The notes under the pieces are model-generated. The model did not search any database, was not told where the DNA came from, and saw only the letters and a program-made list of their open reading frames with translations. A DNA stretch of 36,840 bases, taken from NCBI GenBank assembly GCA_023818375.1, contig JAMWCC010000011.1:1-36840 (forward strand). Reading direction: 5' to 3'. Source of the stretch: Candidatus Omnitrophota bacterium. GTDB lineage: Bacteria; Ratteibacteria; UBA8468; B48-G9; DTJG01. Positions 16,766 through 18,322 of the stretch are shown piece by piece. A program made the position numbers and the translations under genes. Numbering within the stretch: the stretch's first letter is position 1; each line of letters starts with the position of its first letter.

Positions 16766-16794
16766 TTTACTGCAAGTCAAATTTAGTTTATAAT
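16766..16794 (+). promoter_or_regulatory. candidate promoter of tRNA-Ala
   Basis: TTTACT (16766-16771) and a perfect TATAAT (16789-16794) with a 17-base spacer. The expected transcription start is about 16801, only one or two bases before the mature tRNA 5' end, so the precursor would have almost no leader. It is also the only promoter I see for the gene that follows the tRNA. Confidence 0.55.
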
Positions 16795-16802
16795 ATTTTG
16801 TA

Positions 16803-16874
16803 GGGGGTATAGCTCAATGGGAGAGCGTCCGCCTTGCACGCGGAAGGTTGTCGGTTCGAATCCGATTACCTCCA
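16803..16874 (+). tRNA. tRNA-Ala(TGC)
   Basis: Full cloverleaf: acceptor GGGGGTA pairs with TACCTCC (one G-T pair), D arm GCTC/GAGC, anticodon stem TCCGC/GCGGA around loop CTTGCAC with anticodon TGC, and T arm closing around TTCGAAT. Discriminator A. The 3' CCA is not encoded (ACA follows the stem). Reads GCN alanine codons. The next coding sequence starts 25 bases downstream with no room for an independent promoter of normal layout. Confidence 0.97.
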
Positions 16875-16899
16875 CAATTTAAAAAAGGAAACATTACCC

Positions 16900-18219
16900 A
16901 TGGAACCTACCAAAAAAACCTCAAGAGCTTTGGAAGAAATTATGAGTTCTGAAGATATAAATAATATCTTTATTCCGAAGCTCAAAGAACTTTCTTCAAG
17001 TTTTTTTGATATAGCTAAATATTTTATTGAGCATAAGAGTTTTTGCAGTAAAGAATTTTTTGTAACATTTACAAAAGAAAGCGACAAAATAGAGGGTTTT
17101 CTTGATGATCATGGCGCGGGTAATAACAAGACCTTTTTTTATTTCCGAGAATTGATTGCGGCTATAAGATGGTTTACTCAAGCAATTTTTCAAAATCTAC
17201 ATATTATTTCAAGATACGAATCCTACTTTCTCAATCTTTCATTGGAGAAAGAAAAAGAGTTTTTAGATACATTGAAAAACAATTTGAATTTTTTGGTCGA
17301 AACATTAACAATTTTTTGCCGTGAAATACTTGTCGAAGGAAAAATTCTAAATATTCTTCCTGAAGCAGATGTCAATAAAAGTGGTTTTGTCAGCTTTGAA
17401 ATTCCTTATAGGAAAATGCTCCCTTCTGATCTTGAACAGCAAGATGTTGGTGATAGAGACCGTCTTATAAATTTTCTGTTAAAATTTCTTGATCTGGGTC
17501 AGGATCTGGAAATGTTCTCAAGCGACCATAATCTAGAGTCCTATATTACTGAAGAAACACTTGAAAATTTCAGATCTAGGTATCACAGGCTACAATCAAT
17601 ATATGATACCTATATTGGAAATACGGACATAGCAGATCAACTGCGAAGTCTTGCATCTTTACGTGGTCATATTTCGGTTAATCTTCATCTTTTTGAAATG
17701 GCGCGTTCTCTTATTCATTTTTACGAAAGACACACAGAAAGATTAACAAGAATTTCCGAAGAAAAACCGGGTTTAAGAGAGATTCGTTTTAATGACATTA
17801 GGAAATGTGTTGAGCTTTTTATACTTCCTTTTGTTGTTTTTTTTGCCAGGACTGGTAAGAATCTTGCTGAACAGATATTTCAATCTCTTGGGACAGACCC
17901 TGACGAATATGTGCTTGAAACAATATCTTTTGTAATCTCTCCTTATAGAATTGAGGATTTTCATTTAAGGCCAGTAATGCCGGTGACACAAATTGCTGCA
18001 AAATACTCCGCTAATATTGACCTTTATTTCAACAGAAAAAGATATGATTTGAAAAGCCCTCTCGAAATGGCGATGGCAATTCCGGACATTCGTGAAAGAC
18101 TTGCAATAGAAAGTGTTCGTTTGATAGTGAGGGGTCCTAGAAAAGCAACAAGAGAAATCCTAGAGTTTTTTACACAATGTTGTGGTGCGATTCCAGAACA
18201 ACAACTGATTAAGAAATAG
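16900..18219 (+). CDS. uncharacterised helical protein with C-terminal HPr-like domain
   Basis: 439 aa from the ATG at 16900, which has AAGGAA nine bases upstream; an apparent longer frame starts inside the tRNA and is rejected. Residues 1 to about 335 are mostly amphipathic helix with no motif I recognise and no signal peptide. Residues about 340-425 read as an HPr fold: FHLRPVMPVTQIAAKYSANI, then a strand and DLKSPLEMAM, then VRLIVRGPRKATREILEFF. His355-x-Arg-Pro matches the phosphohistidine loop of HPr, and Ser386 lies 31 residues later, the same spacing as His15 and Ser46 of Bacillus HPr. HPr carries phosphate from PEP in the sugar phosphotransferase system, or acts in regulation; no Enzyme I, EII or HPr kinase is in this window, so a regulatory role is only inferred. 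Unusually long for the family (~88 aa). Confidence 0.7.
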   Translation: MEPTKKTSRALEEIMSSEDINNIFIPKLKELSSSFFDIAKYFIEHKSFCSKEFFVTFTKESDKIEGFLDDHGAGNNKTFFYFRELIAAIRWFTQAIFQNLHIISRYESYFLNLSLEKEKEFLDTLKNNLNFLVETLTIFCREILVEGKILNILPEADVNKSGFVSFEIPYRKMLPSDLEQQDVGDRDRLINFLLKFLDLGQDLEMFSSDHNLESYITEETLENFRSRYHRLQSIYDTYIGNTDIADQLRSLASLRGHISVNLHLFEMARSLIHFYERHTERLTRISEEKPGLREIRFNDIRKCVELFILPFVVFFARTGKNLAEQIFQSLGTDPDEYVLETISFVISPYRIEDFHLRPVMPVTQIAAKYSANIDLYFNRKRYDLKSPLEMAMAIPDIRERLAIESVRLIVRGPRKATREILEFFTQCCGAIPEQQLIKK

Positions 18220-18293: not shown

Positions 18294-18322
18294 TTGACTA
18301 CTGTATAAATATACAGTATAAT
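18294..18322 (+). promoter_or_regulatory. lexA promoter
   Basis: TTGACT (18294-18299) and TATAAT (18317-18322) with an exact 17-base spacer: a near-consensus sigma70 promoter. The start is expected near 18329, giving a leader of about 14 bases that carries AAGGA (18331-18335) before the lexA ATG. Confidence 0.85.
18299..18318 (+). promoter_or_regulatory. LexA operator (SOS box)
   Basis: TACTGTATAAATATACAGTA is a nearly perfect palindrome with CTGT-N8-ACAG, one base from the E. coli consensus. It fills the spacer between -35 and -10 of the lexA promoter, so bound LexA would block RNA polymerase: autorepression, relieved by DNA damage. The downstream dinB cassette would be in the same regulon. 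Confidence 0.92.

Follow-up and report, generated by a model that had tools for sequence, protein, structure and literature searches.

The protein of 439 residues encoded at positions 16900 to 18219 of the window (the whole stretch of 36,840 nucleotides analysed here, to which all unlabelled coordinates refer) ends in an HPr domain, as confirmed by family profile, conserved active site and predicted fold. HPr, a small protein module, carries phosphate in the phosphotransferase system (PTS) of bacteria; in the present protein it is fused to a new conserved domain, and the fusion apparently replaces free HPr. Judging from the sequences, the fused protein probably serves a regulatory phosphotransferase pathway as its phosphate carrier. 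In the reading that we favour, and consider reasonably likely, it acts as the HPr-type phosphoacceptor and carrier in a relay from PEP through Enzyme I and HPr to an EIIA protein, with the new domain in a probably regulatory role. Enzyme I, encoded elsewhere in the genome, would take the phosphate from PEP and hand it on to His355 in the C-terminal HPr domain; the next acceptor would be the PtsN-type EIIA encoded beside Enzyme I, possibly along with other targets. The N-terminal helical domain would tie this relay to something else, either as a sensor of a signal that gates phosphotransfer or as an output that depends on the phosphorylation of His355.

The gene lies on the forward strand, with its start codon at 16900 and its stop codon at 18217-18219. 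The longest open reading frame opens at a TTG within the upstream tRNA-Ala gene; the ATG at 16900 serves as the natural start, which gives the 439 residues and agrees with homologues of similar length, found in 22 genomes by a first search of 61. A profile search that included distant lineages brought the relatives of the fused protein to a total of 35 genomes, and in their tree the members from the window's order form one fully supported clade. Among named records, the nearest are metagenome-assembled genomes that carry the labels Candidatus Omnitrophota and candidate division TA06. On the same strand, the all-helical N-terminal domain (residues 1 to about 329) spans 16900-17886, and the HPr domain (residues about 336 to 432), delimited by profile, profile-profile and fold matches, spans 17905-18195. 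Within the latter, the codon at 17962-17964 specifies His355, which aligns with HPr His15, the site of PEP-dependent phosphorylation, and the codon at 18055-18057 specifies Ser386, the equivalent of Ser46. The two residues are 31 positions apart, as are His15 and Ser46 in HPr, and both codons lie where the earlier note had put them.

Taken alone, the window protein gives matches to HPr that are suggestive only, with E=0.028 and 14.9 bits against PF00381 (below the cut-off of 23) and E of about 0.05 against HPr chains of the PDB. A profile built from 18 homologues matches the same PDB chains with E=1e-6. This profile also retrieves 29 short open reading frames, nearly all of 88 to 129 residues, which match profile positions of about 335 to 431 alone and correspond in size and place to a free HPr. 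Several divergent full-length homologues exceed the Pfam cut-off by themselves, at 23.4 to 31.8 bits, while the cut-off of 47.9 for TIGR01003 is reached by no member scanned. Relatives far outside the window's class carry the classical HPr loops PQPLGFHARPSTYISLI and PKPLGFHARPATYVSLI, of the textbook GFHARP type. The active-site loop of the order's own members reads EDFH[IL]RP, against GxHARP in HPr, and a full-length profile made from the order only did not reach free HPr with hmmsearch. The profile-profile alignment of the HPr domain does reach it, with a probability of 87 over 73 columns (E=4.5e-6). His355, Arg357 and Pro358, which form the His-x-Arg-Pro active site, are identical in all 32 complete members, and the position of Ser386 is occupied by Ser in 29 of them, by Asp in two and by Cys in one.

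The AlphaFold model of the full protein, calculated on the alignment, has a mean pLDDT of 85.5 and a pTM of 0.82, and its C-terminal unit is predicted to follow the order b-a-b-b-a-b-a, that is, the open-faced sandwich of HPr. Foldseek relates the model to many HPr structures, with probabilities of 0.96-1.00 and TM-scores on the target of 0.61-0.76. A chance likeness to HPr is ruled out by the invariant His, Arg and Pro, by the divergent homologues that pass the Pfam threshold and by the predicted fold. The earlier note, which had proposed the domain, named the lack of a profile match to HPr, a different fold or the loss of His355 as evidence against it; the profile match exists, the predicted fold is that of HPr and His355 is kept throughout.

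Some members show peculiarities of their own. The HPr domains of L054, L055 and L066 (family f5), L106 and L108 hold an insertion of about 50-90 residues between the second helix and the last strand, with the His loop intact. In L108 (genome G209), the frame moreover opens far upstream of the homologous start, and the additional N-terminal stretch, of low complexity and rich in R, G, P and A, is most likely not coding.

The proposed role as a carrier is based on the PTS inventory of these genomes. It had been claimed that the protein has no PTS partners nearby, and this is correct for the window but misleading; on another contig of the same genome, Enzyme I and a PtsN-type EIIA are encoded side by side, and what is missing is free HPr. 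The gene row on that contig (C91) is kdsA-kdsD-kdsC-lptC-spoIID-hpf-ptsN-ptsI, in which hpf, ptsN and ptsI are named by family models and the remaining genes by reading of their sequences. Enzyme I has 572 residues, scores 580 bits with TIGR01417, for which the cut-off is 341.7, and retains SHTAIMA, the active-site motif, at His189; it consists of the three EI domains alone, without the N-terminal GAF domain that is a feature of PtsP. The EIIA (L051:4530-5009) matches PF00359 with E=7.5e-38 and retains the His of its GIAVPH motif. Its best NCBIfam model is PtsN (TIGR01419), at 111.8 bits and so below the equivalog cut-off of 138.7, and this PtsN-like protein is the sole EIIA found in the window's genome.

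In the sister family f4, the corresponding cluster reads kdsC-lptC-spoIID-hpf-ptsN-EIIAman-ptsH-ptsI, and the gene order of the window's genome is identical to it, minus EIIAman and ptsH. At 17 loci from 16 genomes, relatives of families f5 and f10 included, ptsN is followed directly by ptsI, and the absence of room between the two genes rules out a hidden ptsH beside ptsI at these loci. Searches with PF00381 detected no free HPr in the window's genome, nor in the order as a whole (28 genomes), and the same search does find it in three of the four f4 genomes and in many outgroups. This implies that ptsH was lost from the order or was never present in it, while Enzyme I is kept in 27 of those 28 genomes. 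Of all 49 genomes searched, 47 have an Enzyme I above the TIGR01417 cut-off; where no HPr other than the fused one was found, this holds for 24 of 26. Published surveys report a strong co-occurrence of Enzyme I and HPr, with a few species having HPr without Enzyme I (PMC2405797); to find Enzyme I and no HPr at all would therefore be unusual. With no free ptsH found in the whole order, the fused protein would be the HPr of the relay, and the path from PEP to Enzyme I, His355 and PtsN is the simplest one consistent with the gene inventory.

The suggestion that this system serves regulation rather than sugar uptake gains support from the same inventory. No match over the cut-off was obtained for PTS_EIIC (PF02378) in the 28 genomes checked, including that of the window, in a search confined to this permease family, and no EIIA other than the PtsN-like one was found in the window's genome.

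In 26 genomes no HPr candidate other than the fused protein was found: 18 from the window's order, three from family f5, three from family f10, and the genomes G208 and G248. The two exceptions among them without an Enzyme I over the cut-off are G002, which is 63% complete, and G248. A broader proposal, which we put forward tentatively and at slightly less than an even chance, is that free HPr was lost from the whole order and from several other lineages, where the relay would depend solely on an HPr joined to a new, strongly conserved helical domain that acts as sensor or effector.

Several observations speak against the carrier reading. They include the EDFH[IL]RP loop, the scores of the window protein below the Pfam and NCBIfam cut-offs, the lack of a detected Enzyme I in G248, and the distance of the gene from its presumed partners, no locus having been seen in which it lies near ptsI or ptsN. 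To these are added the genomes that hold both forms of HPr, discussed below, and the gaps in the distribution. The fused protein was not found in eight of the 26 genomes of families f1 and f2, where incompleteness would account for about four misses (P about 0.04), and both genomes of family f3 gave no match either; nearly all of these genomes without a detected fused protein have Enzyme I.

Part of the apparent absence of the gene in some assemblies may be explained by its position, which is often close to a contig end (L012, L013, L018 and others); in G014, on a contig of 368 kb, only 155 bases separate it from the end, and in G026 it is cut by the contig end. In L007 (G009), an in-frame TAA interrupts the N-terminal part of the gene just before the conserved HFYERH motif, reflecting either a pseudogene or an assembly error. 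Plasmid copies of the fused gene were looked for and none was found.

The N-terminal domain, of about 330 residues, is predicted to be all-helical, with eight main helices and a pLDDT of 88.4 for this part alone (residues 1 to about 329), and has a flexible loop at residues 157-181. It was correctly described as helical and of no known family: it matches nothing in Pfam (24 members scanned), NCBIfam or the PDB, and no fold match is significant. Twelve of its residues are nonetheless identical in all 32 complete members, namely F24, E65, L68, D69, N76, L174 (within the flexible loop), D236, R255, H273, E276, R277 and H278, more than are invariant in the HPr part. Since most of these are polar residues fixed across many families, they point to a putative site of binding or catalysis and not simply to a linker.

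Attempts to relate this domain to something known gave no match of weight. The weak Foldseek likenesses to CHAD (6qva; probability 0.66, TM 0.31-0.33, E=0.66) and to PhoU (1xwm; probability 0.47, E=1.1) are not evidence of kinship, and CHAD has no match in the Pfam scan of the N-terminal domains of 24 members. CHAD, PhoU and other known helical families are thereby rejected, as is an internal duplication, which its two four-helix halves had suggested (hhalign probability 0.2, E=0.17). A link of the gene to a defence system is rejected too, since PADLOC gave nothing of weight.

Nine further genomes encode the fused protein together with a free HPr. This coexistence argues for a role of the fused protein beyond phosphate carriage, and in these genomes it must do something besides acting as the sole carrier. 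The HPr domain could then be a terminal phospho-acceptor, phosphorylated on His355 by Enzyme I, or by free HPr where present, that alters the activity of the N-terminal domain and does not hand its phosphate to PtsN. The nine genomes, in which the fused copy is not needed as a carrier, and the greater number of invariant residues in the N-terminal domain favour such a switch, but it would leave PtsN with no other HPr found to serve it in the order, where ptsN and ptsI are still neighbours within a single cluster, and we consider it unlikely.

It is more doubtful still that the HPr fold is only a binding module, no longer phosphorylated, with PtsN and Enzyme I connected by another route or the relay lost. 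The divergent active-site loop and the weak score of the single sequence would fit this proposal, and so would two kinds of genome: those of family f3, which have Enzyme I and PtsN with neither kind of HPr found, and G248, which has the fused protein with no Enzyme I found. Against it, the residues of the HPr domain that remain invariant across many families are precisely His355, Arg357 and Pro358. Two loci of family f3, L173 (G011) and L181 (G013), show Enzyme I beside PtsN. For G248, which is 96% complete and carries the fused gene at L098, free HPr was not found either, and the pattern corresponds to an assembly gap or to a fused protein that is used without Enzyme I.

The claim that the protein reads the state of HPr kinase is not supported. 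HprK (PF07475, TIGR00679) was not found in the window's genome, which is 89% complete, nor in any genome searched in which the fused protein is the only HPr, by a search that also missed the HprK of B. subtilis used as a control; its absence is provisional. HprK was found clearly only in five of the nine genomes with both forms of HPr. A switch that integrates phosphorylation from PEP at His355 with that by HPr kinase at Ser386 is very improbable. Ser386 does sit at the Ser46 position and is a serine in most members, but the kinase is not found where it would be needed, three members have Asp or Cys instead, and Ser46 also occurs in HPr proteins whose hosts lack HprK, E. coli among them.

The genetic neighborhood gives no clue to the output of the preferred carrier, as no functional neighbour is conserved across lineages. 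Depending on the lineage, the gene is found near rpsB and tsf, near HNH, NUDIX, CvpA and aminotransferase genes, near an M20 peptidase and AnmK, or near a sigma factor. In the window, a tRNA-Ala(TGC) gene identified by ARAGORN (16803-16875, forward strand) stands 24 bases before the start codon and may share a transcript with the fused gene; among the 17 relatives of the order scanned, 13 likewise have this tRNA upstream in the same orientation. A sigma-70-like site upstream of the tRNA (TTTACT-17-TATAAT, 16766-16794, forward strand), obtained in a consensus scan whose count is not above that of shuffled sequences, is a possible promoter of both.

Downstream of the fused gene lie lexA, an ORF of 83 residues and a DinB-type polymerase, a neighbourhood seen only in the genus. 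Before lexA, a promoter-like TTGACT-17-TATAAT (18294-18322) encloses an E. coli-type SOS box, CTGTATAAATATACAG (18301-18316), and CTGT-N8-ACAG sites near the 3' end of the fused gene are also present in four relatives of the genus (L002, L003, L061 and L062). The LexA of this lineage probably represses itself together with the downstream ORF and the DinB-type polymerase.

HPr is central to one of the most thoroughly studied systems of signaling and transport in bacteria, and its fusion to an uncharacterised domain at least as conserved as the HPr part offers a specific candidate for the missing step in a PTS that, in these genomes, would otherwise seem defective. It is also a warning for annotation: by the usual Pfam cut-offs, such genomes appear to have Enzyme I and EIIA without HPr. 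The new domain, defined by its invariant residues, can now be used to seek its signal or target. If the proposed role is true, the central carrier of the relay would itself be a regulator. Neither this PTS layout nor the architecture of a helical domain followed by HPr is described in the open-access literature searched.

Among the known systems, HPr itself (PtsH; PF00381, TIGR01003) shares with the C-terminal domain the b-a-b-b-a-b-a order, the active-site His, Arg and Pro, the Ser46 position and an alignment over the whole domain. Its free form has about 88 residues and a GxHARP loop, whereas here the domain is the C-terminal quarter of the protein, with the loop EDFHLRP and scores under the family cut-offs. 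Crh (catabolite repression HPr) from Bacillus is similarly HPr-like and regulatory, but it has no His15 site and acts by way of Ser46 and HprK; in the fused protein the His is invariant and HprK was not found. FPr (FruB), DhaM and other multiphosphoryl transfer proteins also contain HPr as one domain of a larger protein. Their partners are IIA and/or EI domains, as in the HPr fusions surveyed, which join only other PTS domains (PMC2405797), whereas the helical domain has no detectable relation to any PTS protein, with no IIA or EI match in the window protein or in the N-terminal domains of 24 members. A regulatory PTS is known from bacteria without permeases such as Brucella (PMC2937029), and PTSNtr, the nitrogen-related PTS, is an analogue of the relay from PEP through Enzyme I and HPr to PtsN (PMC13104625). 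NPr (PtsO) of PTSNtr is a free small protein, and the PtsP of that system has a GAF domain, unlike the Enzyme I found here; the fused protein resembles NPr in its likely place between Enzyme I and a PtsN-type EIIA, in a setting with no PTS_EIIC permease detected and with an hpf-ptsN cluster.
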